Assembly: GCF_000499385.1 (NCBI RefSeq)
Contig: NW_013651854.1
Coordinates: 1 to 12,927, forward strand
DNA from: Eimeria necatrix
Lineage: Eukaryota > Apicomplexa > Conoidasida > Eucoccidiorida > Eimeriidae
Direction of reading: 5' to 3'
DNA length: 12,927 bases
The notes under the pieces: model-generated
What the model was told of the DNA's origin: nothing
Database searches by the model: none
The model's input: only the letters and a program-made list of their open reading frames with translations
Made by a program: the position numbers and the translations under genes
Part shown: in pieces, positions 1 to 12,927 of the stretch
Position numbering within the stretch: position 1 is the first letter of the stretch
How the letters are laid out: every line of letters starts with the position of its first letter

Positions 1-760
1 CCTGAAGGAACGGTCCTGCGGTTCATCACGCACCACGCTTACTTGGTCGCCTCATAGAATTTTGACGTCCAATAACAAGCGAAAACAAGCAATTTTCCAA
101 ACAGTTCGTATGCGCGCAAAACGAGATGAGGCGCCTACCCTGTGTCCAGCTACAAGTGCATGCGCCGAGGGTTCTCAAATTCCGCATGGGTGCGACTGTG
201 GCGTCCTTGCAGGCTCTCGAGCTACTTTGGGCTTTTGAGCAAAGGCCAGCGAAGCCGGAAACTGCACTTTAGCTGGGCCGGTGCTCTCTTTATCGTATGC
301 TGCATGCATGCTTGAGGAGCTTAGCCAAATCCATGGGCGAGACAATTTCGGAAACCCTGGGTGAATCACACGCTTTGGGGACGACCCCAGTGCAGCAGGC
401 CACAATACAAAAAAGACATCGACGAAACGACCGCCTCACCCCGGCCCCAAAATTTATCCCAGGTGCTATGTTCTTCCCAGTTCCCTTCAGCACGGCGCAG
501 CGATAGCTCAGCGAATACAACTGCGCATCAACTTGACTTTGGCAAACAAAACCGTCCATATTCATCGTCAGGCGCTTCAAGAAACTTGATGCACTGCATA
601 GAAAAGTAAATATTCTTCTGAAGCTAACGCGTGTGTTCACCATAATTGTGCCCAGGGCAGAGTTAGTAGCACGCACCTCTAATTCTGTAGCCCAGGTCTA
701 TGAACAAGGAGTGCAACGCGGCGGCCTGTATCAGGTGACAACATATCAGCGTCTCGCCAT
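1..760 (-). repeat. Partial repeat unit U0
   Basis: This is the upstream part (minus-strand sense) of a unit whose 3' motif lies outside the window. Its only notable content is an open minus frame at 290-676. Bases 1-170 show nothing recognisable. Confidence 0.5.
293..676 (-). CDS. Unassigned open frame in unit U0
   Basis: This is a 128-residue open minus-strand frame that begins at GTG, not ATG, so it may be an exon or a chance frame. It is basic and hydrophobic near the start (VSFRRIFTFLCSASSFLKRL) and Cys-rich later (RRCLFCIVACCTG). By position in the array it falls where the alpha segment and its upstream part should lie, and the first stretch could be alpha-like, but I could not align it convincingly. 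Plus-strand frames overlap it. There is no known-family match. Confidence 0.25.
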
Positions 761-771
761 CTTACTCCCTG
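761..771 (-). other. Periodic splice-like motif, copy 1
   Basis: The minus strand reads TTTTGCAGGGAGTAAG: a pyrimidine tract, CAG, GGA, then GTAAG. In the frame shared with most copies it codes Phe-Ala-Gly and then a phase-1 GTAAG donor. It marks the 3' end of unit U1 on the minus strand. Confidence 0.7.
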
Positions 772-844
772 CAAAAGGCAAGGCTTTTAGAGTACTTTTC
801 TTGAGCTCTCTATTTTCTTAAAACTGGGTTAGCCTGCTACATAC

Positions 845-919
845 TATTCAGCAGGCCAGTCGAGGCTTTAAATGAACCTTGTAGTATCCGCACCCGGCTG
901 CTCTCAATTTTCTTGATAC
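845..919 (-). CDS. Epsilon exon of unit U1
   Basis: This is the cleanest single exon in the window. Upstream on the minus strand is a long pyrimidine tract and acceptor (CCTTGTCTTTGTTTAGCAG), and downstream is a GTATGT donor at 844. The 75 bases begin and end in phase 1. The frame codes for 24 residues, including IKKIESSRVRILQG and KASTGLLN. The KASTGLLN stretch resembles KTSNGDLLR in the epsilon exon of U5 at nearly the same distance from the motif. A TAG follows in the same frame inside the proposed intron. The next coding piece would be the LKKSTLKALPFAG frame that runs into motif copy 1. No function is recognisable. Confidence 0.5.
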
Positions 920-1011
920 CTGCTAAACAAAGACAAGGAGGCGCATGAACTCATCACAGTCGCAAACACCAGGACGCACACATCATCCCTCTGTACTACA
1001 ATGCATCCCTA

Positions 1012-1266
1012 TCTCCCGTCGAGCACAACTGTATCTCCGTATATCCGTTTGCAAAGCACGTGGCTTAAATGCTCCTCACATTTCTGCGTGAAGCTCTCAA
1101 AAACATTTGAACGGGTGTCTTGTAGCTGGCCATACGTCTGTTCTGCTGTAGGCCCCACGAAAATAAAGCGGTCATGGTGAAATAGCAACTCGTAGCAGTT
1201 CGTTGGGTTGAGATAACATGGATCAACGGAGGAAGGACGCGCAGCACCAGCCAGTCTGCCAACCAT
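1012..1266 (-). CDS. Gamma/delta exon of unit U1
   Basis: This open minus-strand frame looks like globular protein: VDPCYLNPTNCYELLFHHDR, then FIFVGPTAEQTYGQLQDTRS, then FTQKCEEHLSHVLCKRIYGD. IFVG followed by QLQDTRSN can be set against IFIG followed by DLQNATHS in U4 at a similar offset. The delta Asp seen in eight other units is not evident; SHVLCK occupies about that position. The ATG at 1266 is probably internal, because the beta segment just upstream is in another frame and an intron or frameshift must lie between. There is no family match. Confidence 0.4.
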
Positions 1267-1287
1267 TTAAGCGGATAAACCGAGATG

Positions 1288-1305
1288 CAGTTTGACAAGA
1301 ATATC
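1288..1305 (-). repeat. Beta segment, 18-base identity (U1 copy)
   Basis: The + strand word CAGTTTGACAAGAATATC is identical at 7189-7206 in U5. The two copies lie 527 and 501 bases from their motifs. A diverged version (TGACGAAAATGTC) lies at 5697-5709 in U4, 515 bases from its motif. The minus strand reads AIFLSN in one frame and GDILVKL in another. The equal offsets make chance unlikely. Confidence 0.6.
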
Positions 1306-2167
1306 GCCAAAACAATGTTTAGTGGCTCTTCAAATACAGCAGCCGCGGATAAACGACCACATGATCACTCAAACCCATCAGCGTTGGACATCGATATTCA
1401 AGGTCTTCCCTATTCACCCACTGGCTGCACTCCGCGCGAAACATCCTGTATCTTGGTCAATCGTATTTTCTTGAGAGAATGCTGTAGACTTTCTATTACC
1501 GTAATTGGGTTATTACCCCGGAAAGACTCTTAGCGAAACATATTAGCAGTTCATCAGCTAAGTTGTAAGTGTCAAACATATGTGTTAACCTCAAGATAAG
1601 CCTTCCCAGTCATTTTGATACTTCAGCTTAATTTACGCTACAAATTTAGATTTTGGTCAAGCACACAAGTCACTCTGGGCATGCGGTCGAGATACTTTGG
1701 ACCAAATCTGGTACCATGAAGATGCGTCCTACATCCTGCGCCCACGAACTCGTGAGAAACAAAACGTTATCATCCAAAGGCGCATCATGCCCCAACCGAT
1801 GCAGCTACTCACAGATCAGTACTTTTTAACTAAAAAAGGCAACTAAACTGGCGCCAGATGTTTGGTTCTCAGTCATGATTGGATCTGCAAACGAAAAAAA
1901 GCCTCTGCACTGGCAACTGCTGAGATAGGGTCGGGCATCAAAATGCCATGCTGCCTCGCATCTACCAACAGTGGGAACTGCAGGTTGCCATTTACGTCGT
2001 ATGTACATGCACCAAATTATCAAAAGCGAATACCGTGAATGCAGGTTGATCCTGCGCTTTTATTTCAAACTTTCAAGCGCACTACTGACCCAACGATACA
2101 AAACACTACATATGGGTAGATATAGATGCAATGTCCACAGTTCCCTAACAACTCGCCTCCAATAAAA

Positions 2168-2178
2168 CTCACTCCCTG
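2168..2178 (-). other. Periodic splice-like motif, copy 2
   Basis: The minus strand reads GTTTCAGGGAGTGAG, coding Val-Ser-Gly and then a phase-1 GTGAG donor. The frame just upstream (2173-2227) is open and reads DSAAHTAPGTSKRIGVSG, preceded by a TAG acceptor-like triplet. Confidence 0.7.
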
Positions 2179-2242
2179 AAACACCGATTCTTTTCGAAGT
2201 TCCAGGAGCCGTATGTGCCGCAGAATCCTACCAGGCTTTTAC

Positions 2243-2393
2243 GGAACGATACAAAAGGAAGCGCACGTTTCCAATACATACAGCAGCATGCGCAGAATGA
2301 TGGTGAATATGCTTTTGATGAATGTTTGCGCAAGACCACGAAGAAGAGTGTAAACAATTGACACGACGTCAAACAGCAGCCCGCAGAGTTTCT
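2243..2393 (-). CDS. Epsilon exon of unit U2 (hydrophobic helix-rich)
   Basis: This exon follows the acceptor TTTTTAG in phase 1 and ends at a GTAAAA donor (2242) in phase 2, giving 151 bases and 49 full codons. The peptide is strongly protein-like and helical: KLCGLLFDVVSIVYTLLRGL, then AQTFIKSIFTIILRMLLYVL, then ETCASFCIVP. The part IILRMLLYVLETCAS aligns with RILRDLVYCSLTIAIAS (U5) and NILRRFLHIISALATAS (U4). It has few charged residues, so it could be a membrane segment or the buried core of a helical repeat; spaced Arg and Lys make the second more likely. Its join to the 3' motif frame is not resolved, since only 15 bases separate it from the open frame at 2173-2227. Confidence 0.5.
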
Positions 2394-2435
2394 CTAAAAA
2401 CATAAGTTCAAGTGAAAGGTATCACGGCCGTAAAC

Positions 2436-2540
2436 GCACCTTTAGAGAAGAATTCGTATTCAGCATGAGGTCTCTCCGAGAAATATTTGGCCTGATTGTG
2501 CAAAAGTCGAGCATTGCACCGTAGTTGAGCGCATGCACGA
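2436..2540 (-). CDS. Delta exon of unit U2
   Basis: This is a phase 1-1 exon of 105 bases between a TAAG acceptor (2541) and a GTTTACGG donor (2435). The peptide runs VHALNYGAMLDFCTIRPNIS, then RRDLMLNTNSSLKV. GAMLDFC matches RGMIDKC in U3 and VRAFDRC in U7, and the Asp codon (2506-2508) is 338 bases from the motif. The 42-base intron to the epsilon exon (2394-2435) has its donor in the same phase, and of similar sequence, as U3 and U5. A TGA inside this intron explains why no long frame is seen. Confidence 0.5.
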
Positions 2541-3011
2541 CTTACTGCACTTTCAATACTAACGGGACACTAGAAAAATCAGAGCATTCCTCCGAATAGG
2601 TATGTTCATAAGAAAAGCTAAAGCAGTGTTGTCTGGATCTCTGGACCAAAATCTGAATACACCCGCCTCTCTACATACCACCACCACACCAATGCTATTA
2701 ACTTGCTAATGGTTCTAAATTCAGACGTGAGAACTGGACAGATACGAAGTGCGAAATCCCCCATAGACTTAGGACAAGCGGAATTGCATCAAATTCCAAA
2801 TTCTGCAACCTCAGCTACCAATCACTAGCTTTTTGTTTTATCACATACAGGCTGCAAAAAAGAAGCGGATTCCTCATGCGCGCCCGTTGACCTCCAAACG
2901 CACCATATGACCACAAGCGTTGGCAGCGGCATTTTGGGGACTCAGAGGTTCAGGTGGTCATCATTTCACGTGAAGAGTACACGCTCAGTACCAAAATACG
3001 ATTTTTTCTCA

Positions 3012-3191
3012 GCATGCGGCAAAAATTCTTGACAAGAAACATTGAGCATCACCCACCAGTCTTATTGCGTAGCTGAACCAACAACAGAGCTCTGCAGAGA
3101 AGGCCGTTTCTTTTATCGTAAGAAGAATTTCAAGTTGAATTGGGCGAGGAGTTGCAGGATTCCTCACAATGATACGAGACACATCGAACAA
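3012..3191 (-). CDS. Alpha-like segment of unit U2
   Basis: This minus frame reads PIQLEILLTIKETAFSAELC and then further hydrophobic residues with WFSYAIRLVG. LEILLTIKETAFSAEL can be set against YEMLSIKEIASFIED in U4 at the matching offset (about +850 to +950); a three-base gap keeps the frame. The ATG at 3191 and the residues before RPIQ may belong to an intron. The similarity is short and judged by eye. Confidence 0.33.
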
Positions 3192-3746
3192 ACAATATCC
3201 CCATCAATCCAACATCTTTGGATCTCCCCATTCTAAGAAAGGAAGAGCACATAACATCCTTTCGCATAGACTCACCGGCTGTGCCAGATAGATGTAACGT
3301 CGTGCAGCAGAGCAACGTGATATAACAGCTGATGATCACAATGCCAGCGGCATGCTTCACTTTGATATGAAACGCAAAGGCATCTCAGCTTTTTGGTACT
3401 ACATGCTTTACAGATCTTAAAAAAAGCAAAGTGTCGGTCGTGTGCAGCTGCTGAACTTATGGGAAAAAATGCTCCACGCCTACGTCGCTATTGTGAAGTC
3501 GAAGGAACAAGCAAACAACCAGAATGCCTGTCACTCTCCACCCATTATAGAAAACTAACTATCCAAGCAGTAGCATTGTACCAGCTGGCAAAGGCAGCTC
3601 ACATGGAAGACAGACTACCTCGTTCGTCGAAAAAAACACCAAGGCATCTGCGGCGCCGGATAATAGCGAGCACAAAGCAACACAATTGGTCAATGTCGCT
3701 GCGCGACACTGATCAATTGTGTGCACTGAACTCTACTTCTTAGACG

Positions 3747-3757
3747 CGTACTCCCTG
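3747..3757 (-). other. Periodic splice-like motif, copy 3
   Basis: The minus strand reads TTTTTTCACCAGGGAGTACG. A GTAAGT lies 23 bases before the GGA, so a 23-base intron from GTAAGT to CCAG can be drawn. The alternative frame reads VGVFSPG into the GTACG donor. It is closely similar to copy 4 (CGTAAGT...CCAGGGAGTACG). Confidence 0.7.
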
Positions 3758-3813
3758 GTGAAAAAACTCCCACTTACGGTCTATATACAAGGCTTGTTTG
3801 TGCTGATTGCTAC

Positions 3814-3907
3814 CTAGACCGTCTATAATAATTGCGAATGCAGGACAGCAACATGGAGAAGCCCCTCAATTTACGAAAGACGCCGCTAAATCTGCTCTTA
3901 GCCTCTT
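3814..3907 (-). CDS. Epsilon exon of unit U3
   Basis: The acceptor is TTGTTCTCACTCTTAAG with a good pyrimidine tract, entered in phase 1; the donor is AG-GTAGCA (3813), left in phase 2. The peptide includes EAKSRFSGVFRKLRGF and SMLLSCIRNYYRRS. KSRFSGVFRKL resembles KSFALISGVFASL in U5, with SGVF identical. LLSCIRNYY fits the LLRILRDLVY position. The intron to the delta exon would be 117 bases (3908-4024). This is a third case of the same exon boundary. Confidence 0.48.
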
Positions 3908-4024
3908 CTTAAGAGTGAGAACAAAACGAAAAGGAATTTATACACGTAAACAGCAGGACGCAAGCAGCTTCTCCTTAAAGTGATATACGCTGTCGCCTCC
4001 GTTCACACAGTGTGTAGGTTCAAC

Positions 4025-4211
4025 TGGCTTCGAGGTGATATTTCCGCAATCCTTGACTACTCAAGCATTTGTCTATCATTCCTCTGGCAGCTGGGTAAGC
4101 GCGCCTGATTTTGCACAACCAATGAAGGAGCTGCGTGGCAAATTTCCAACAACTGAGGAGACATGGATGTGTAAAGCGGGCATGCAGCACTGCGCCGCCC
4201 CGCATATAACA
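4025..4211 (-). CDS. Gamma/delta exon of unit U3
   Basis: This open minus frame has LLSCWKFATQLLHWLCKIRR, then AYPAARGMIDKCLSSQGLRK, then YHLEA. RGMIDKC is the delta motif, with its Asp codon at 4071-4073, 324 bases from the motif. It leaves at a phase-1 A-GTTGAACC donor (4024), like A-GTTTAAAC in U5 and C-GTTTACGG in U2. A TGA follows at once in the intron. An ATG lies at 4205 but the frame is open a little further up, so the true 5' edge is unknown. Confidence 0.45.
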
Positions 4212-5181
4212 CTAGCAAAAACATATGTACCACAATTTCTCCCCTTTAATGATCACAGCTTTTCCACACGTGACAGCTAAGCAGATTTCCATTCCACGTC
4301 TCACAGCTTTTGCATAACAAACAAAGCCGCGTAAGATGCCGACGTCCACTACCGTAGCCATCAATAGTCACCACCCTGTCTTCACGTACTGGCTGAATGG
4401 CACATGAAACTCAATAAGCATGCGCTAAATAAGCGTCCCTTCTCTTATGAGCTGCTAATAATCAACATCGCCTTTTGTTAAAATTCGTGCATCGAAGTAG
4501 CTGATCAGCATATCACCAGGGGAAAGCGCATCGAACGCCAAGCAAGGAGTGCCGCCGCCAAAACTTGTAGGTTAAATAACTGGCTAGCAGGAGGTTTCGG
4601 TGGTGCTATGCTGCATTTTTGGTCCATCAAAAGCAGTTTGTCCATATACTATACGCCACGTCAACCAAAGGCATTACCTGTGACCGCCCAACTCCACGTA
4701 CAACGTACAAATACCTTAAAAGAAAAAGGCATACTCAGCACAGCCGACAACGTTGGAATCGTGTGCTATCATGTGTGTCTTTGAAGCAATAAAAGCAAAT
4801 ATTCGCAGCATGTGGGCTCACGGGCTGCACAGAAGCAATGCGATACTGTCCAAAAGCGCAGCGCGTCACATCCGCTGACATATGCGCAGGAAGCGCCATG
4901 TTTGATCCGAAGATGACTGTAAAAAAATCTTGTTGTTCTGGTACCCGTAATAGTCTGCGGCATCAGGGAGGCAAGTATATGCCGCGTGCAACTGGAAAGA
5001 TGATTACCAACCCCAGAGAGTCGTCGATACCTATGAGTCCTGAATAGCAGGAAGCAAAGTGATTGTGTTTCTCTTATCCAAAGCGGCATCCAAAGTGATC
5101 AGAAAAGGTTTTTTACCGATAGAGAGCATCAGTGCATCGCCGTACCCCGCGTAGTTGTTTGACGCCTCAAAATGGCCTCAA

Positions 5182-5192
5182 CGTACTCCCTG
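5182..5192 (-). other. Periodic splice-like motif, copy 4
   Basis: The minus strand reads GTTTCCCCAGGGAGTACG, with a perfect GTAAGT at 5215-5210 that would define a 26-base intron. The alternative frame reads VWKVVSPG, which resembles VGVFSPG at copy 3. Copies 3 and 4 are the most alike pair. Confidence 0.7.
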
Positions 5193-5215
5193 GGGAAACA
5201 ACTTTCCATACTTAC

Positions 5216-5397
5216 GTGACTTCAAGCAAAGCTCGTCTCAAGTGCTGTCCAGGCAATATCGACGCAGTCGCGAGAGCAGAGATGATATGCAGAAATCTTC
5301 GCAAAATGTTCAAGAGGCCGCTCAAGATGCATGAGCTCATGCAAATGCAGACACTACGTGCACGGAAGCAGCGCTGTCCAACCGCACAGAGACCCAT
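5216..5397 (-). CDS. Epsilon segment of unit U4
   Basis: This open minus frame ends at a perfect GTAAGT donor (5215) in phase 2. The core, SGLLNILRRFLHIISALATA, aligns without gaps to GDLLRILRDLVYCSLTIAIA in U5 and to KSIFTIILRMLLYVLETCAS in U2. The 5' edge is unclear. No phase-1 acceptor equivalent to those in U1, U2, U3 and U5 was found, and LYEKWVSVRLDSAASVHVVS upstream is in another frame behind a TTTTTTGCAG acceptor. Either an extra intron or a frameshift is present. If spliced at 5190, the product continues TEYVEAILRR. Confidence 0.42.
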
Positions 5398-5403
5398 TTC
5401 TCA

Positions 5404-5691
5404 TACAGCTGCAAAAAATGAACGGTGTGAATTCAATTGAAGCAGCACAAACTTTCCTAAACCATGAAATGTTGACGTACTCAGAAAAGTGTCCAAAATG
5501 AGCTGCCTAGAACCTTCCAGGCCGTTTGAGTGGATGTTCTCTTTTGCCTCGGAAGTGGGCGAATGTGTGGCATTTTGCAGATCAGAAGCAGATATGCGGA
5601 CCCCAATAAAAATGGAAAGCACCAGCACCCAGATCTGCCTGAAAGATTTCAATGAACAGAAGGCGCGCGCAACACGCGCCGATCCACACAC
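5404..5691 (-). CDS. Gamma/delta segment of unit U4
   Basis: This open minus frame reads RQIWVLVLSIFIGVRISASD, LQNATHSPTSEAKENIHSNG, then LEGSRQLILDTFLSTSTFHG. SRQLILDT matches IRHIVLDT in U6; the Asp codon is at 5491-5493, 309 bases from the motif. The hydrophobic start looks like a signal peptide, but the frame opens at GTG rather than ATG, behind a TTTCAG acceptor-like site. The resemblance to a secretion signal is therefore probably accidental. Confidence 0.42.
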
Positions 5692-6127
5692 TGCACTGAC
5701 GAAAATGTCGCCTCAACGACCTCTTCACACTGCCAGTAAAATTTGCAGAGGGAAGGTGCAAAAACATGCCTTTGTGCTTTAACACAAATACCAATCAAAG
5801 CAAATACAATTATATCAGTTGGCATTCGGCAGCGTATGTCGTAAAGTACTTGCTGAACTCCACAAGAAACGTGATGCGTCGAATTGTTCGGAAGCATTTT
5901 TGTCATTACGTCATAACTGCTTTGAATATAATATCTAAATTCGCGTAGAAGGAAACATTCAGCATAACAGATAAGCGTCATCTCGCTACATATATAGTCG
6001 GCACACACTAAGCATGCAGTGCTTGGCTCGATCATACGGCGCAGCGGGAATTTGTCTTCTATGAATGATGCAATTTCTTTGATAGAAAGCATTTCGTATT
6101 CTGTACGGATCTTGTTTGCCCAACCGT
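5652..6127 (-). CDS. Alpha/beta open frame of unit U4 (longest minus frame)
   Basis: This frame is open for 147 codons from the ATG at 6092 and 12 more codons upstream to a TTTCCTAG acceptor at 6128. The alpha part reads GWANKIRTEY, EMLSIKEIASFIEDKFPLRR, then STACLVCADY. In U6 the same offset holds VFIAGLVKYW and CTACRVA, so I(V)..IA..(V)I and TAC.V recur. The 3' part reads CEEVVEATFSSVQC, the beta position. A GTATGA at 6037 could end a 90-base alpha exon, but the match continuing into STAC suggests a longer one. It is Cys-rich, with no known domain. Confidence 0.42.
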
Positions 6128-6687
6128 CTAGGAAACGGAACTACAGTTTGACATAGGAAAAAACTTGAAAGCTAGGCTTGATGGAAAAATCACTATAAAC
6201 GTACAGCGAGCGTTTTCCAAATCTTTCCAGGTCTTTTGCTGCTCTGATAGCATTACCACAAAAATTTATACTGCATGCACGCACAGTCTTTGGAGATATA
6301 TTGCAACATTGTTCAAAGGCACAGCATGTTGCAACCGTTAAGGACTATACAACAAGTAGCATGCAGGGCATTGAAAAAGCGGTTAAAGTAGTGCTACTCT
6401 TTTAGTACATAGTGCTCCCTGCTGCTTCTAGAGAGCAATGACTACTAAGAGCATGAGCGTAAAGTGTATTTTACTAATATATTATATGGGGAAAATGAAA
6501 AGTAACAAGGCAGATATCCTACCAATAGTTTGTCAACCGCAGCAACCTAGCCTGAAAAGGATGCCGTCGTGTAGATCAGACGTCGTATGCAATACAACTA
6601 TCAGGCACAGTCAATCCTCCAAAGAATATCTATCATCTTGCATGGCCACACGCTCAACAATGTTTTGACACCTTACAATCAGTCCAA

Positions 6688-6698
6688 CTTACTCCCTG
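6688..6698 (-). other. Periodic splice-like motif, copy 5
   Basis: The minus strand reads CTGAACAGGGAGTAAG. A GTAAAC at 6717 would give a 22-base intron ending at this CAG. In the direct frame a TGA precedes Thr-Gly, so the spliced reading is favoured here. Confidence 0.7.
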
Positions 6699-6717
6699 TT
6701 CAGTCACTGCTGTTTAC

Positions 6718-6926
6718 ATGAAGCGCATTCTTCTGAAGTACCGGCCAGAACCTTTTTGAAGCAATCGCTATAGTGAGAGAACAATAAACTAAATCTCGCA
6801 AAATGCGCAAAAGGTCACCATTGCTGGTTTTGATGCCTTGACGAACATTGGCGCTTAAGGATGCAAAGACTCCGCTGATTAGAGCAAAGGATTTCGTTCC
6901 CGCATTGAGGTACAAGCGGATGGGAC
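6718..6926 (-). CDS. Epsilon exon of unit U5
   Basis: The exon enters in phase 1 after GAATTTAG and leaves in phase 0 at GTAAAC (6717); 209 bases, 69 codons. The peptide is LYLNAGTKSFALISGVFASL, SANVRQGIKTSNGDLLRILR, then DLVYCSLTIAIASKRF. It has the complete epsilon pattern and served as reference for the other units: SGVF is shared with U3, KTSNG(D)LL with U1, and LR.L.DL..... (U8: LFRTLSDLFHVLASFAFA) with U8. It has an even spread of Leu/Ile/Val and Arg/Lys, as in amphipathic helices. Spliced to the delta exon by a 37-base intron, it gives a continuous frame of about 94 codons. Confidence 0.52.
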
Positions 6927-6963
6927 CTAAATTCTCCGAGCAAGTGCATAGATCCGTTTAAAC

Positions 6964-7036
6964 TCTGCAAGGTTGCTGCGGCCAGCAAATATCTCGGCGA
7001 GACGTCCAGCGCCCTGTACACCTTTTGAGGAACAGT
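6964..7036 (-). CDS. Delta exon of unit U5
   Basis: The peptide TVPQKVYRALDVSPRYLLAA carries the delta Asp (codon 7004-7006, 316 bases from the motif). It ends A-GTTTAAACGG in phase 1 and rejoins at 6926 in phase 1. The 37-base intron contains none of the exon frame. The proposed acceptor GGATAG (7037) is entered in phase 0 and has only a weak pyrimidine tract, so the 5' edge is uncertain. VYRALD compares with VRAFD in U7. Confidence 0.47.
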
Positions 7037-7188
7037 CTATCCTTATCTTATGCGTGGAGGAAAATTCAATCTACTTTCATTTCTAATGTGAATCAGAAGA
7101 TGTTAACAATGCCAGAAAATTCTAGAAACGAGATCTTGAAAAAGCTGCGTGAACAAAAGAAGCACGAAACACACACGACCACGCATGC

Positions 7189-7206
7189 CAGTTTGACAAG
7201 AATATC
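7189..7206 (-). repeat. Beta segment, 18-base identity (U5 copy)
   Basis: Identical to 1288-1305 over 18 bases, 5.9 kb away and four units apart, at almost the same offset from the motif. The flanks differ, apart from some weak similarity upstream on the minus strand to U4 (GTGTGAA). Confidence 0.6.
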
Positions 7207-7584
7207 ACCCCACCAAATTCACACCTTGCAAATAGCAGTAGTCCCGAACAGACAAGAAAACGCCGCTTAATGCGCCATTCCTTGGCAAACAATCAACCAA
7301 CATGCTTAGAGGAAGTTGAAAATTTTACAGCCTCAACTATCAGGAATATTCGGTGTTTTCACATACATTCTGCATGCCACATGAGTACGTGGACAACTTA
7401 AACAGCCGCTTCTCAAGGCCAAATACTCCGTTACGTACTTCAAATGCGGAGATCGGAGATGAAGGACAACGTTCCGGCCAAAGATGCCTTTTACACGATG
7501 CCAGAGGAAAAGACGTGATGCATGAAACAATGGGTTTCGCACACACAGCCAATGTGTCAGACTTGTACCTCCCACTTTTCTTAC

Positions 7585-7640
7585 GTTAAAAACCAATAGT
7601 GCCTTTAGTACAAGATATACTGTCCATGGATTGGGTGTTC
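7585..7640 (-). CDS. Possible alpha exon of unit U5
   Basis: A 56-base stretch lies between an AATTAG acceptor and a GTAAGA donor. It enters in phase 1 and reads TPNPWTVYLVLKALLVFN. It sits at the alpha offset (+897 to +952) and is hydrophobic like alpha in other units, but the sequence match is weak. Confidence 0.28.
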
Positions 7641-8134
7641 CTAATTATGTGGAAAGCACTTGAGTTCGACCCAAAGCATAATTGTAGAACTCAGGACATC
7701 CACAGCGAAGACACAGTGTATTGCTCTGCAAGACTTCATCGAAATGCATGTGCTCACGACCTGCACAAAAATACAGCGACGTTGTTCGCGACAAAGACGT
7801 TTCAGAGCTGCTTACAGGTGCCCAGAAAGAGTCATGCTTGGCCAGGAGACGGCCGCCGTGGACATCCTAGTTTTTTGGCGTGCATTGCTGTGCTTTTCTC
7901 GAAGGGAGCACTAGACCTACTCCACTCAGTTCCGCAGGGCACAGAAACACCATACTTGAACCAACGGTCATTTTTAAACCGCAGGATATTTTGTAACCAA
8001 AAAGGTTGATATTCAGGCCAGATGTTACCTCCCATGGGATGCGAATATTTCAGAGCTTCAAGCACTCTGCGATATCGGAGAATAATGCAGGAAGCTGGCA
8101 CCGATTATATCCCGGCATTCCGCTTCTATTGGGC

Positions 8135-8145
8135 CTTACCCCCTG
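8135..8145 (-). other. Periodic splice-like motif, copy 6 (GGG variant)
   Basis: The minus strand reads GTTTGCAGGGGGTAAG. The upstream frame runs straight in as LLTLTFAG with no intron needed. It ends in Phe-Ala-Gly, as copy 1 does. It was found by looking at the position the period predicted. Confidence 0.6.
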
Positions 8146-8413
8146 CAAACGTAAGGGTCAATAAATATGCAGTGCGCAATCGTGTCAATCTCCGGCAAGT
8201 TCCTGTAGAACAATGGCGAAGACACGAAATGACCCATAAAACATGCGTCAGAACGCATTGAGTAAGTTTCTGATGCGTGCAAATGGACTCCGCCGAATGT
8301 AGCCTTAATGGTTCTTCACAATTGACTGTAAGCAATGATGCCAATATTTCATTTGCGCAATTAGCACTATCACTCGGCACAAATTTTTCTCTCAGTACAT
8401 GTAGAAATGACAA
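8140..8413 (-). CDS. Epsilon/zeta open frame of unit U6
   Basis: The minus frame is open through the epsilon position and straight into motif copy 6 without an intron: NCANEILASLLTVNCEEPLR, LTQCVLTHVLWVISCLRHCS, then AYLLTLTFAG before GTAAG. CVLTHVLWVISCL sits where LLRILRDLVYC lies in U5. The end LTFAG matches LPFAG in U1 and LISAG in U9. The overlap with the gamma/delta frame at 8392-8413 means an intron boundary lies about there; AT-GTACTGAG at about 8400 is a candidate donor. Confidence 0.4.
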
Positions 8414-8682
8414 AAAGCTATGAATTCAATTGCCTCTGCCGGGATCGTATCAAGCACAATGTGGCGGATACGTTCACCAGGATTCTTAAGAGGAGTCTGG
8501 GAGGGGTTTTCTGTACGTTGTACTATGTCCAGCCGAGAGTCCACCATTGATTTGTACTGCGTTGTATCGGATTTTCCACGCAAGTGAAACGGACTCAGCA
8601 AGACAGGCCAAAGCAGCAAGTTCGCCAGCCGGAAAAACGTCTGTGAAAGAGAAAAGCACAGAGCATCTGTTGAATCGCACAA
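8414..8682 (-). CDS. Gamma/delta exon of unit U6
   Basis: This long open frame reads LSQTFFRLANLLLWPVLLSP, GKSDTTQYKSMVDSRLDIVQ, then NPGERIRHIVLDTIPAEAIE. IRHIVLDTIP carries the delta Asp (codon 8449-8451, 314 bases from the motif) and matches SRQLILDTFL in U4 and LTLDNSIPPVAA in U9. GKSDTTQ parallels SASDLQ in U4. It opens at GTG, so it is an internal exon or its start is elsewhere. Confidence 0.45.
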
Positions 8683-8939
8683 TACGCTGGCAGCAGTATT
8701 GCAAGAAAAGATATCCGCCTGGTGGGACTTTGCTCCTTTTTGTTTGCTTAAACTGTCAAAAAATGTTCATCTATCTGGCCGTTAGTCCCGATGCGCCAAG
8801 CGGATGAATATTTATTTGACGGTTTGCACAAGCTATGAACAGCAAAGCCCCAGCAGTTCAAAATGTTCAACTGCCTCAACAATCAATAATTAAAACAGTG
8901 TGCCTGCACTTACTGGCTTTAAAGGTTTCGCATTTTTCA

Positions 8940-9095
8940 TCCAAGAGACCAAATCTGCCCAAGAACCGCAACACGACACGCTGTACAAACCCGAAAATAA
9001 TCAGAAGTCCAGTATTTTACTAGGCCTGCAATGAATACGTGAGAAACATGGAATTTCGCTCTGAACACAAATTTCTCGGTAGTTACGCGATGATG
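8940..9095 (-). CDS. Alpha exon of unit U6
   Basis: This stretch of 52 codons is open without any ATG: TEKFVFRAKFHVSHVFIAGL, VKYWTSDYFRVCTACRVAVL, then GQIWSLG. It follows a GTAGCTAG acceptor-like site and stops at a TGA (8937-8939). VFIAGL..Y and TAC.V echo IKEIASFIED and STACLV in U4. T-S, F, R and C positions also match KLTSSSVAFSRCIAS in U7. The ATG-less frame would be missed by ordinary ORF finding. Confidence 0.4.
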
Positions 9096-9730
9096 CTAGC
9101 TACCACGCATTTAACTCGTGCGAACAAGCCATTTGAAAATAAAACACATGTCATCATCTGCCGAAACACGTCTCATAGCAACGTCCAAAACGCCATTCGC
9201 TAAATCTACGAAACAATCGTAGAAATGGGCAACTCAATACACCATGCGCACAACTAATGCCGCTAAGGTGTTTCCAGATCGTCTTTCCCCATAAATCGCG
9301 TAACAAAAATGTTATACTACATCTACTCACACGCTGCAGAGAAATGACGTAATGTGACGCAGTGGCTGATGGCTCCACAGCAACCAGCATGCTGCGCTTT
9401 GAGATAACGACCCAATGCATTCCGGTTCTCTGATACGCAATGCTTTTCAAATCGCCAATAAAGCCTATAGTCGGTCACACACAACTGCTGAGTGTTTTGG
9501 CAACGGCCTTTCTTGTTTACGTCGGTAGCTATAATATCGGCAACCAATAATTGAAAACCGAACTTCTTTCATTCGCTTATCCACCGCAGACCACTAATTG
9601 AGAAATGCGCCCAGAGCCTTCGTCATTCACTTTTCCACTGCTGATCAGCAGTTCGCAAAAGCAGTTGAGGCAGACGCTGTCGCGGATGTAAGGGCCGATG
9701 CAGCGCCGCGACATTTAGCAGCACAGGGCA

Positions 9731-9741
9731 CTCACCCCCTA
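9731..9741 (-). other. Periodic splice-like motif, copy 7 (TAG variant)
   Basis: The minus strand reads TTTTTACTAGGGGGTGAG. The CAG is replaced by TAG, which is also an allowed acceptor, and GTGAG is kept. It was found at the position the period predicted. Confidence 0.58.
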
Positions 9742-9963
9742 GTAAAAAGAGCCTCCAACCGTCGATATATGTTTAGGCTTCATTGCTGCGTGCCAACTAG
9801 CAGAGATCTGGATGATGTCTTTAGCACGCTGCTGGCGCTTTGTATTTAGTTTGATTGCTGGCTTACTGCTATTAATGAGTGTAAATGTTTGTGATCCTAA
9901 TAGAAATGGGATGATGACAGCAAAATCGCACCACATGGCCAGATACTTTTTAGAAACCCCCAT
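9742..9963 (-). CDS. Epsilon segment of unit U7
   Basis: This open minus frame reads YLAMWCDFAVIIPFLLGSQT, FTLINSSKPAIKLNTKRQQR, then AKDIIQISASWHAAMKPKH. AKDIIQISASWHAAM can be placed on LRDLVYCSLTIAIAS. Just before motif copy 7 a GTTGGA could start a 21-base intron ending in TAG. It is polar and Lys-rich in the middle, unlike U2, which shows how far the units have drifted apart. Confidence 0.38.
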
Positions 9964-10098
9964 GATGGGAAAAATGCGACACTCGCCCCCCTGCAGTTCG
10001 CGCTGACAAGGCTACTGCCAATCTGACCTTAATCCCGCTGATTGCAGTCGCAGTGCATCTGTCAAAAGCACGGACGTCTATTTCGCAGCTTTTAGCAT
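9964..10098 (-). CDS. Delta exon of unit U7
   Basis: The frame starts after the acceptor TTTTTCTTGAGCAG (good pyrimidine tract), entered in phase 1, and reads AKSCEIDVRAFDRCTATAIS, then GIKVRLAVALSARTAGG. VRAFDRC is the delta motif (Asp codon 10061-10063, 330 bases from the motif), close to YRALD in U5 and MIDKC in U3. No phase-1 GTTKA donor was found, so the 3' edge is unknown; the frame stays open to a TAA at 9950. Confidence 0.45.
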
Positions 10099-10581
10099 CT
10101 GCTCAAGAAAAACCCGCGAAGTGCACCATTCCCTAGTGTCTCAACTATCAATGCTCAAAAGTCATGCGTCTACGCATACTGGCTACAAGCCTCGAAAAGC
10201 GGACATCCCACAACAGCTCTGCCTTCTGGCAAACAGATTGAAGGACTTTAACCTAAACCAACCGGGTGCGTGCAGCGGCAGACATTTACCAAGATAGAAG
10301 TCTGATGCCCAACACGCGGCTTTCAATTCTAGTATGCAATCTCCTCCAAAATTCAAAAATCAATCCTGCGATAGTCGTGGCTTTGTAAATTCCTGTTTGG
10401 CTTCGCCGGGTAACAGAGTTTGTGAGCTCTGCATAACATGCAGGATGCCAAAGTCAAAATCGCACCTGCTATTTTGCATTAATAAGTTAACGTACTGCGC
10501 GTACTGCAGCGGACAACACGGTCCGCCAAACGTCCTGCACTCACGGGCTTCACAAAAACATAGAGCCTTAATCGGGAACTA

Positions 10582-10710
10582 CGACGCGATGCATCTGCTG
10601 AAGGCTACAGAGCTAGAAGTAAGCTTTCCAAGGAGAGAAAAAACAATCAGACAGCGTTTCGCACCACCCACATATCTATTGCCGTTTAGAGAAAAAGCCT
10701 TTCCAGAACG
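10582..10710 (-). CDS. Alpha exon of unit U7
   Basis: These 43 codons lie between a CCTAG acceptor-like site (10711) and a TAG, with no ATG: GKAFSLNGNRYVGGAKR, then CLIVFSLLGKLTSSSVAFSR, then CIAS. It lies 851-979 bases from the motif, the same window as alpha in U4 and U6. Residues VF, K.T.S, F and C match U6. The composition is protein-like. Confidence 0.38.
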
Positions 10711-11024
10711 CTAGGGGATTTTCAGTATTCAACAATCATTCAAAAGCACAGATCTGCCTCAACCAATTGCACAGAGAACAACGGGTGTAAAACATCGATT
10801 TTATTTTGACAGCTATTTGGGAGGGGCAAGAAATAAGCACAGACACACATTATCCCATTCACATGTCCACCGAAGCATCCCTTTCGTCAGATGCATTTGA
10901 TGCAGACGGGAGGTGCCGTCGTGCAGGCAACTCAAACCTCATACGAATTCGGCGAGTCAGTAGTATTAAAAAGCAATGCATCGGTGGTGCCATCACAGTA
11001 GACGACACATCAAATTCACTGAAT

Positions 11025-11035
11025 CATACTCCCTG
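11025..11035 (-). other. Periodic splice-like motif, copy 8
   Basis: The minus strand reads GCTTCTACAGGGAGTATG. The upstream frame reads NAASTG into a phase-1 GTATG donor. A GTAAAT 30 bases upstream could alternatively open a 30-base intron ending at this CAG. Confidence 0.68.
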
Positions 11036-11100
11036 TAGAAGCAGCGTTTCTGGAGTATTTACTTATGACGTGTGCTCGCCTGGGAACGAGGTCTGTGCAC
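11030..11100 (-). CDS. Zeta exon at motif 8, with overlapping epsilon frame of unit U8
   Basis: After the acceptor TTTGCTTTTCAG (pyrimidine tract) an open frame reads CTDLVPRRAHVISKYSRNAA, then STG, into the phase-1 GTATG donor. AH...SK..R...SG also occurs in the frame before motif 2 (AHTAPGTSKRIGVSG). Upstream, in another frame, is an epsilon-like stretch, CLFRTLSDLFHVLASFAFAF (about 11100-11165), matching L.R.L.DL.....L...A.A of U5. That stretch is preceded in frame by a TGA with no acceptor between, so U8 epsilon may be broken or start differently. Confidence 0.42.
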
Positions 11101-11216
11101 CTGAAAAGCAAACGCGAAGGAGGCTAAGACATGGAATAAATCAGATAACGTGCGGAACAGACACACCACCAAGGATAGTCATGTCTATTGACAAAAAGCA
11201 TGCAAAGGCGCAATTA

Positions 11217-11411
11217 GTCCATACACGCTAAAAGCGCCTTCTCGCTACACAGATACCCATATGTCGTGATAGAAAACACATGAGAGCACCTTAACATGAA
11301 CGACCTAGGCTGAGAGCGCTGCCCAGACACTGCACGACTTTCGTTGTCAACAAAAATCCACATGAGGGGTGTAAACTGTGGACTCCCCCCACGCCCATTG
11401 AACGTCTGCCC
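11217..11411 (-). CDS. Delta exon of unit U8
   Basis: These 65 open codons include SPQFTPLMWIFVDNESRAVS, then GQRSQPRSFMLRCSHVFSIT and SEKALLACMD. The WIFVDNESRAVSG part fits the delta position, with Asp at 11346-11348, 321 bases from the motif. It compares with LTLDNSIPPVAAR in U9 and RHIVLDTIPAEAI in U6. The exon edges are not resolved. Confidence 0.38.
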
Positions 11412-11827
11412 TCAATTGCCTTGTTACTGGACAACTACTCCTTAGTATCACGCTATGCATATACTTAGAGAGCAAAAAAGCAGAGAACTAGCAACGATTT
11501 GATATGTCTCCAAAACTTCGGTACGCGCTGGCCTGTTTACCAGAGCGACGTAAGTATTGCCCTGCCAGCTTTTTCAGTTCGGTGATAGGAGTTACTCCCG
11601 GCGAGGCAAATGAATTTACCTTCAATTCGCCTTCTACATACACGCGAAAAAATGCCAGATGATGTGACAGACCCTACTACCTCAGCTATTATTCTTCACC
11701 ATTTGCAATCACATACTCGCTGCACGTCATGACGCGTTAGCTATCATTCCATGCGAATGCATATTTTTTGTGCCAGCATGGATACTTGATCACAAAATCA
11801 GAAGGCGTACAATGAAAATGTTCATCA

Positions 11828-12034
11828 AAGACAATATTCGAGGTCCAACCACTGCAGTAGGTCAAGCCTGCTAAGGCCCTCAATAGATTGCCCAAAAGAT
11901 ACGTACAAGACAACCTTTAGCCGTCGCCTGTTGAGGTTATTGTGCAATATTTCTTTCTGCTGTAAGCAATACCGCCACGTGGTTATGCACGCACAAGCAG
12001 GGAACGCCGCACAGCGTGAACCTACCAGCTGCAC
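11828..12034 (-). CDS. Alpha-position open frame of unit U8
   Basis: This minus frame lies at the alpha offset and reads CLQQKEILHNNLNRRRLKVV, then LYVSFGQSIEGLSRLDLLQW. It is protein-like and helical, but I could not align it to alpha in other units. There is no family match. Confidence 0.3.
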
Positions 12035-12068
12035 AAAAACAGTGCAAAGTTCCCCAAATTGCCAGTTA

Positions 12069-12404
12069 CGCGCAAGTTTGCAGTAATATCAATTGCTTTA
12101 TTTGATTCAATATAAAATATCCCACGTTTGTGGTATGTCTGGGTAGCATGAAAACGTAGGAAAGCTGTGTGCGACATTCATAGCTGACCCACTTATTGCA
12201 GGCTGGCATGTGAAGCGACGACATCTTAGACGTCGCTTTTCCCTGAATCTTTTGCTGCTCACTCCCAGCAGATATCAACGCGGCAAGCTGCTCACGAAAG
12301 AAGCGTTGATCCATGCAACGGGGAACAAGCCATAAATATGCATGACTGGGCGCGCTGTGGCAACACTGTGACGGCGTTACATAGAAATTCTGCGCAACAG
12401 TTAT
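12069..12404 (-). CDS. Open frame across motif 9 (U9 into U8)
   Basis: The frame is open for about 112 codons without a needed ATG: FYVTPSQCCHSAPSHAYLWL, VPRCMDQRFFREQLAALISA, then G at the motif. It then continues past it with GSEQQKIQGKATSKMSSL and further. The ending LAALISAG parallels LTFAG (U6) and LPFAG (U1). AYLWL and AYLLT (U6) share GCA TAT TTA codons at a similar distance. The part after the motif may be intron read-through, since GTGAG is kept. An ATG at 12314 is internal. Confidence 0.38.
12213..12238. other. Hairpin, 8-bp stem
   Basis: AAGCGACG and CGTCGCTT form a perfect 8-bp inverted repeat around a 10-base loop, followed on the + strand by two more T. It lies 20 bases from motif 9. 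It may be a nucleic-acid structure or chance. Confidence 0.35.
12258..12268 (-). other. Periodic splice-like motif, copy 9 (acceptor AG lost)
   Basis: The minus strand reads ATATCTGCTGGGAGTGAG, so the expected YAG is CTG here, while GGA-GTGAG is kept. The direct frame reads LAALISAG. This copy argues that the Gly codon plus the GTRNG donor are the conserved part, not the acceptor. On the + strand the copy sits in the loop of a 5-bp CTGCT/AGCAG stem. Confidence 0.55.
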
Positions 12405-12429
12405 TTACTAAAGACAAAGAATGGCGGTC

Positions 12430-12624
12430 TCACAAAACACGGAACACGCTTTTCTGTGGCCGTTGTCCGCTGAGTTCCGTTGCGCTACAAAATATCTCGC
12501 ACTGGATGCACAAGAAAGCCACACCACAACATATTAATAGAAACCAGGCCGTGGCTGCGCACCATGTGAGCCCCGCGCATTCACGCGCGGCAACTGGCGG
12601 AATCGAGTTATCAAGCGTCAGCAC
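12430..12624 (-). CDS. Delta segment of unit U9
   Basis: This open minus frame (GTG at 12624) reads LTLDNSIPPVAARECAGLTW, then CAATAWFLLICCGVAFLCIQ. LTLDNSIP matches VLDTIPAEA in U6, with its Asp codon at 12610-12612, 352 bases from the motif. The following 25 residues are hydrophobic and Cys-rich and could span a membrane or form a buried helix. Confidence 0.38.
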   Translation of the reverse strand: MLTLDNSIPPVAARECAGLTWCAATAWFLLICCGVAFLCIQCEIFCSATELSGQRPQKSVFRVL

Positions 12625-12804
12625 GCCATTTCGTATCTGTGTCTAGCTAGTGCTGGCAAGGCATATGAGGAACGGCTGCGGAAGAAGATACCGAAGAGTG
12701 CAGTTGTCCGTGAATCCCGAGTTCCCCGCACTATGAGAATATCATTTGGTTCATATCAAGAAGCAAGGGCCGTGTTGGGGCTATTGAGCTCTAGTGCTAC
12801 TTCG

Positions 12805-12854
12805 CGGCTCGGAGCGCCCTTACGAGCCGAGATATATACACTCTGCGAAGAGTG
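12805..12854. other. Two adjacent small hairpins
   Basis: CGGCTCG/CGAGCCG (7 bp, 11-base loop, 12805-12829) is followed ten bases on by CACTCT/AGAGTG (6 bp) closed by the GNRA-type loop GCGA (12839-12854). Two stems so close suggest a structured RNA or a chance pair. No known RNA family is recognised. Confidence 0.3.
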
Positions 12855-12927
12855 CAAGACGGCGAAATAGATGCACATTTACGATTTGCCGCGGCGTCGC
12901 GAACTCCCGCATCGGCGCGCAGGAGTG

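Follow-up and report, generated by a model that had tools for sequence, protein, structure and literature searches.

Candidate one-codon exons in collagen-like Gly-X-Y order in a diverged tandem array of Eimeria necatrix

The window analysed here is a 12,927-nucleotide stretch of DNA from the coccidian parasite Eimeria necatrix (NW_013651854.1 of the RefSeq assembly GCF_000499385.1), which makes up an entire contig (C328). It very likely (probability about 0.86) represents part of the interior of a protein-coding gene on the minus strand, whose exons would each consist of one codon in phase 0, three of them making one collagen Gly-X-Y triplet, and whose message would be built by stepwise splicing. 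According to this prediction, every exon would comprise three bases flanked by NAG and GTRNG(T), the introns between exons would measure ~300–770 bases and evolve like background DNA, and a tandem-duplicated unit of ~1.4 kb would hold three exons, i.e. one Gly-X-Y triplet, so that the window would contain eight glycine exons.

The preliminary description of the window had reported nine same-strand copies of a splice-like word, CTYACTCCCTG, spaced 1233–1596 bases, and had proposed that the whole window is one diverged tandem array. Both the copies and the array were confirmed. With up to two mismatches the word is found 14 times in the window, 13 times on the plus strand, against 3.96 expected and a maximum of 9 in 200 shuffles; the nine periodic copies start at positions 761, 2168, 3747, 5182, 6688, 8135, 9731, 11025 and 12258 of the plus strand (spacings 1407, 1579, 1435, 1506, 1447, 1596, 1294 and 1233). 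Three of the remaining five matches (7753, 9326 and 11712) are X or Y exons of the Gly-X-Y series described below, and two (11591 on the plus strand and 8256 on the minus strand) lie outside it. The similarity between the units extends beyond the 11-base word, as revealed by self-matches at the period (5119–5738 vs 6626–7234, 56%, E 1e-11; 3312–3560 vs 9349–9599, E 3e-11; 679–802 vs 10944–11064, E 7e-5) and by the all-to-all comparison of eight units, in which 13 of the 28 pairs beat the best reversed or reverse-complement control (Wilcoxon P 3.8e-6). The period also continues beyond the window: the homologous contig C260 matches positions 4–12927 at 79%, and there the array extends past both window ends. 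A younger tandem array with a period of ~1.28 kb lies next to the old one and retains recognisable three-base exons in only some of its units; its edge was located at 4..643 of the window (plus strand) by an nhmmer unit profile and a genome DNA search, and it continues in contigs C337, C224, C173, C1070 and C260. A whole-unit profile built from the young units alone reaches, besides positions 4–645, old units with E-values of 3e-5, 0.004 and 0.007, while the link to the remaining old units is based on direct self-matches, intermediate contigs, an iterative search (with the window itself in the database) and the unit-pair test. A Pfam scan of 10 of the 26 open reading frames of the window yielded no family above its cut-off, and no RNA family reached its gathering threshold in the window.

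The word is the first sign of acceptor-NNN-donor elements, of which there are three per ~1.4-kb unit. On the minus strand it reads as a CAG acceptor, a GGR triplet and a GTRNG donor, which bears out its splice-like character for eight of the nine copies, all of them three-base exon candidates; the ninth copy (12258..12268, minus strand) carries CTG in place of the required AG acceptor, falls within sequence that was masked because none of the homologs aligns well there, and was not counted as an exon. What the preliminary description missed is that the word is joined in every unit by two other classes of element; because each unit holds three such elements, a single period would correspond to one Gly-X-Y triplet in a collagen-like gene encoded by the minus strand. 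The three-base spacing and the strand bias are directly visible in the counts. The minus strand of the window contains 18 CAG-N3-GTRNG sites, picked regardless of conservation and conserved, all 18, in every aligned homolog, and the plus strand contains three, one of them conserved; with the other spacers between 0 and 15 there are 0–4 sites on either strand (including, on the minus strand, a single site with spacer 0, i.e. CAG directly before GTRNG, which is not conserved), and 300 dinucleotide shuffles of the window yielded a mean of 1.6 and a maximum of 8 sites with the three-base spacer. A model of the splice sites, trained on contig C485 (see below) and blind to the three middle bases, identified 26 minus-strand and 3 plus-strand sites above the threshold of 7, compared with 0–8 minus-strand sites for spacers 0–2 and 4–30 and with a mean of 3.7 and a maximum of 10 in 100 shuffles.

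Of these 26 sites, 24 belong to the Gly-X-Y series and were kept as exon candidates; they lie 309–774 bases apart, three per unit. Taken from right to left, their codons translate as L R G P P G R P G V N G T Q G P P G P P G D P G, with glycine at 8/8 third positions and at 0/16 other positions, and with no stop among the 24 codons. The corresponding chain in C260 reads LQ GPP GRP GPI GPP GPP GLP GSR E, with two additional sites before it (D, C) and one after it (V), and that in C337 reads GLN GSE GPP GPP GPP G, followed by D L T F G G within the younger repeats. If these elements are indeed spliced and expressed, the product would be a collagen-like rod, perhaps secreted or exposed at the surface.

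All exon candidates are on the minus strand. In the direction of reading, the series begins with CTG (Leu, X; 12026..12028), which in the context CAG-CTG-GTAGGT is identical in C260, and CGA (Arg, Y; 11717..11719; CAG-CGA-GTATGT), replaced by CAA in C260. The first glycine candidate is GGA (11030..11032; word at 11025; CAG-GGA-GTATGA, identical in C260), followed by CCC (Pro, X; 10545..10547; AAG-CCC-GTGAGT, identical in C260) and CCA (Pro, Y; 10180..10182; TAG-CCA-GTATGC, in C260 CAG-CCA-GTATGT). The next triplet comprises GGG (Gly; 9736..9738; word at 9731; TAG-GGG-GTGAGT, in C260 CAG-GGG-GTAAGT), CGT (Arg, X; 9331..9333; CAG-CGT-GTGAGT, with AGA, also Arg, in C260) and CCA (Pro, Y; 8914..8916; AAG-CCA-GTAAGT, identical in C260). 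It is succeeded by GGG (Gly; 8140..8142; word at 8135), found as CAG-GGG-GTAAGG in the window, C337 and C260, by GTC (Val, X; 7758..7760; CAG-GTC-GTGAGC), which is CTC in C337 and CCC in C260, and by AAT (Asn, Y; 7367..7369; CAG-AAT-GTATGT), which is AAT in C337 and C224 and ATT in C260. Further along lie GGA (Gly; 6693..6695; word at 6688), identical in C337, C224 and C260, ACT (Thr, X; 6285..6287; AAG-ACT-GTGCGT), with the splice sites kept in 3/3 aligned homologs, and CAA (Gln, Y; 5850..5852; CAG-CAA-GTACTT), for which the homologs have GAA, GAT and CCA with the donor GTACGT. The codon GGA (Gly; 5187..5189; word at 5182) is again identical in C337, C224 and C260, CCC (Pro, X; 4822..4824) corresponds to CCT, CTT and CCC in the homologs, and CCA (Pro, Y; 4390..4392) is the same codon in 3/3 aligned homologs, as is the following GGA (Gly; 3752..3754; word at 3747). 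For CCG (Pro, X; 3276..3278) the sites are kept in 4/4 homologs and the codon is CTG in C260, while CCT (Pro, Y; 2849..2851) and GGA (Gly; 2173..2175; word at 2168) are identical in 4/4 homologs. The series ends with GAT (Asp, X; 1733..1735; homologs CCA, CCA, CCA and TCA) and CCA (Pro, Y; 1422..1424; homologs CCA, CCA, CCG and AGA), both with sites kept in 4/4 homologs, and with GGA (Gly; 766..768; word at 761), which is GGA in 3/4 homologs and GAA in C260.

The comparison with four homologous contigs (C337, C224, C173 and C260, 81–86% identical to the window) indicates which parts of the units are under constraint. In the 24 chosen exons the AG acceptors (120/120) and the GT donors (120/120) are invariant, donor position +5 is conserved in 57/60 and position +4 in 49/60 comparisons, and the glycine codons in 62/63, vs 85/117 for the X/Y codons and 26165/31149 (0.84) for the background; in C260 alone the respective values are 96/96 for AG and GT, 23/24 for Gly, 34/48 for X/Y and 0.822 for the background. 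Thus the spliceosomal GT-AG signature is conserved in 240/240 cases among the chosen 24 exons and at all 18 strict sites that were not selected for conservation. In the eight alignable words, 225/231 base comparisons are conserved vs 84% in the background, a level not reached when nine 11-mers were drawn at random 20,000 times, and on the minus strand this conservation falls into two half-sites, CAG and GTRNG. The base preceding CAG is conserved in 8/17 comparisons in the eight words and in 44/56 over all 24 sites; with its free base ahead of CAG the element resembles a 3' splice site. No conserved islands were detected in the homologs (C337 and C224 are 75–96% identical per aligned 100 bases within the match), and the conserved long exon expected beside the word was not found, the identity dropping to about background level next to the motif. 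The constraint observed affects the splice sites plus the glycine codon, not the unit in its entirety. The X/Y codons change faster than the background (85/117 vs 0.84; binomial p 0.002, from comparisons that are not independent), which fits a collagen and may reflect diversifying selection.

Satellite DNA in which a protein-binding motif (an insulator, origin or centromere-like box, for example) recurs periodically would likewise combine a long diverged tandem, a single orientation and a short conserved motif in background-like DNA. We regard it as very improbable, since the motif consists of two half-sites whose free middle triplet follows the Gly-X-Y order without stops, and since C485 exhibits the same design after an ATG exon without being made of one repeated unit. 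A somewhat more serious alternative, still unlikely, is that the family once had one-codon exons and that the copy in the window is a pseudogene or relic: the ninth word lacks its AG acceptor, the younger neighbouring repeats exhibit only part of the three exons per unit, and codons expected to encode glycine are GAA in C260 and, once, CGA in C173. Against it, the splice dinucleotides of the 24 exons are all kept across 14–19% divergence and the 24 codons are free of stops, from which it follows that constraint acted until recently.

The coding interpretation is extended by C485, whose first 20 kb carry 130 strict minus-strand sites and none on the plus strand, with at most 7 for any other spacer between 0 and 12; one of the 130 has a TGA triplet and lies four bases from another site. 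With a minimum spacing of 80 imposed on the chain model, the sites can be linked into 209 one-codon exons, none of them a stop (P 6e-7 if the triplets had intron composition). The introns between them measure 90 bases or more, with a median of ~112, and all have GT donors and CAG (166), TAG (31) or AAG (12) acceptors. Position 1 of these codons is rich in G and poor in T (p 5e-14), while positions 2 and 3 are weakly biased (p 0.07 and 0.02). A predicted first exon, placed to the right of the chain (25996–26280, minus strand; L053:5996–6280), starts with ATG, spans 95 codons and ends in phase 0 exactly at GTAAGT; the region from 26 to 33 kb lacks sites above 8. It would encode a hydrophobic N-terminus and a second hydrophobic segment, and contains an RRLAA stretch, which we take to resemble a TEXEL-type export motif (a putative assignment). 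Elsewhere in the genome nine weaker matches to this exon were found (E 3e-7 to 0.003, several covering only part of it). After the best one, on C200, the same design recurs, with 17 sites above 8 (one located within the matching exon) as against 0–4 for other spacers between 0 and 12. Twelve self-matches were found in C485 (local duplications), and at three pairs of minus-strand sites (10664/10530, 207/60 and 619/359) adjacent one-codon exons have nearly identical flanks, as expected for a recent duplication of an exon-intron unit. Together with the three-exon units of the window, the local duplications suggest that these genes become longer as exon-intron units are duplicated.

Within the one genome in which the design was studied (44.0 Mb, 1148 contigs), CAGNNNGTRNGT (CAG-NNN-GTRNGT) occurs 4,987 times vs 1,571 in the control, and the same pattern with four bases in place of three occurs 1,847 times vs 1,895. 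Triplets TAA and TGA between the sites stay at chance (53 vs 62), while the composition-matched sense triplets AAT and GAT are in excess (233 vs 39), as are GGN (315 vs 95) and CCN (378 vs 36); if the triplets are codons, this is the expected absence of stops from the excess. As a fraction of 0.478 of the C485 exons fits the genome-wide pattern, dividing the excess by this value suggests, as a rough extrapolation, ~6,900 three-base exons in the genome. This genome also encodes open frames rich in poly-Q/A/S and a helicase that, among the 12 proteins listed, has its nearest named relatives in Eimeria acervulina (67% over 58%) and E. mitis. The same one-codon-exon design would also occur in other genes of the genome, including non-collagen ones. 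We find it probable, if less so than the reading of the window itself, that there is a whole class of genes with one codon per exon, the collagen-like ones growing by duplication of Gly-X-Y units, with messages built by a sequential ratchet and with proteins that gene finders are likely to miss. These data also bear on the idea that the elements are non-coding stations of recursive splicing, i.e. ratchet points for removing a giant intron, at which the three bases carry no message. Excerpts of PMC8605326 describe such points in Drosophila as juxtaposed acceptors and donors, which the elements resemble in structure, and the flanks evolve like background. Yet ratchet points, in the same excerpts, leave zero bases, while here only spacer 3 is enriched; moreover, TAA and TGA lack the genome-wide excess of matched sense triplets, none of the 209 codons in C485 is a stop, and the glycine codons are kept when the X/Y codons are not. 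We therefore consider this idea improbable.

Several observations weigh against a one-codon-exon collagen gene. Contigs C337, C224 and C173 are 93–95% alike and so do not provide independent comparisons, and a tandem origin would mean that the repetition of GGA is partly inherited, which leaves unexplained its retention despite the divergence of X/Y. Two of the 26 sites above the threshold were dropped, namely 10471 (TAG-CAG-GTGCGA), whose splice sites are not conserved in C260, and 3783 (TAG-ACC-GTAAGT), which is separated by 26 bases from the Gly exon 3757 and has lost its acceptor in C224, so that the 240/240 figure is valid for the chosen 24 only. Among these, three acceptors are AAG and two TAG, and one donor lacks the G at +5. 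Strict sites enclosing stops do exist (CAG-TAA-GTGTG in C260 and CAG-TGA-GTGTG in C485); both lie four bases away from a site of the chain and were excluded as overlaps, and the stop TAG was left out of the genome-wide count. The Pfam Collagen matches (PF01391) of the peptides from the window (24 residues; E 2.7e-4, 21.1 bits), C260 (E 3.6e-4, 20.7 bits) and C337 (E 0.023, 14.9 bits) are all below the curated cut-off of 27.2, and a search for homologs of the C485 body (165 aa) and first exon found none, under a length filter that would exclude the full-length protein.

As to the mechanism, 3' and 5' splice sites separated by only three bases can hardly be bound at the same time, which makes stepwise splicing of a one-codon-exon gene likely: in a ratchet-like fashion, an intron would be removed up to its three-base exon, the end of which would then act as the next donor, so that each step would add one codon, akin to recursive splicing. 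Drosophila ratchet points, by comparison, appear in the excerpts to hold zero bases (PMC8605326). Isolated exons of 1 and 3 nucleotides can be spliced, e.g. in Arabidopsis APC11, and sit among normal exons according to the parts of the sources available (PMC4674806; PMC8831610), whereas here three-base exons would form most of the coding region. There is a further likeness in design to the micro-exon genes (MEGs) of Schistosoma, another parasite, in which, as far as the consulted section of PMC4350168 tells, the coding region consists mostly of very small symmetrical exons; as modelled from the sequence, the window would have 24 and C485 209 tiny symmetrical exons. They differ in that the exons here are one-codon, three-base ones, 209 of them in series in C485, and in that the organism is a coccidian and not a flatworm, the two being likened by design alone. 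The predicted peptide shares the unbroken Gly-X-Y order and many prolines with the collagen triple helix. Exons of animal fibrillar collagens contain whole triplets and are often 54 bp long, unlike here, where every residue would have a separate exon. A gene of serial three-base exons was not found among the open-access matches listed (subscription journals and preprints lay outside the search), no open-access paper joined "microexons" with "Eimeria", and none of the open-access papers found on three-base exons concerned apicomplexans, judged by title; the listed matches include a paper about gam gene splicing in E. nieschulzi (PMC5718062). No precedent for one-codon-exon genes thus appeared among the open-access matches listed, while single 3-nt exons, single 1-nt exons, MEGs and recursive splicing are already known. 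If the prediction is true, split genes would have reached their limit, each codon being separated from the next by an intron; the shortest exon that a spliceosome handles and the order of intron removal would become directly testable; nature would have provided a system in which stepwise splicing is obligatory; and an Eimeria-like parasite would possess a hidden set of proteins, whose diversification is hinted at by the fast change of the X/Y codons.

Elsewhere in the genome, C3 and C342 also exhibit the design, with strict sites biased to one strand (21 vs 5 in C3; 17 vs 2, partly in Gly-X-Y order, in C342). Fourteen other loci (L002–L007, chosen for holding the word pattern, and the SAG loci L033–L040; two overlap) have 0–1 sites per strand. 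Contigs C759 and C593, which share DNA with the window, have only 6 and 2 sites, with more (10) on the antisense strand of C759, and C379 has 2 strict sites. The SAG loci are relevant to a further possibility, that the window is a decayed array of SAG surface-antigen genes and the word a SAG exon start. PF11054, the SAG domain, is matched at least 137 times in this genome and not at all in 14 control genomes, and CAG-GGAGTGG stands at such a position in one SAG gene, but the word is found there in only 1/8 of the SAG loci examined, the listed SAG arrays sit on other contigs with a spacing of ~2.2–2.5 kb, and none of the at least 137 listed matches falls on C328, which makes this the least credible of the alternatives. 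SAG gene arrays with this spacing were noted in C26, C38, C79, C58, C996 and C1056. An array of the trypanosome VSG type was rejected, as no spliced-leader match was found. The window also contains a 43-bp imperfect hairpin palindrome (3680–3722, 84% in self-comparison, with inverted matches in C337 and C224) and a 160-bp imperfect inverted repeat (8708–8867, 63%), and a small inverted match (79% identity) connects the homologous arrays at 5945–6069 of the window and C260:9131–9255.

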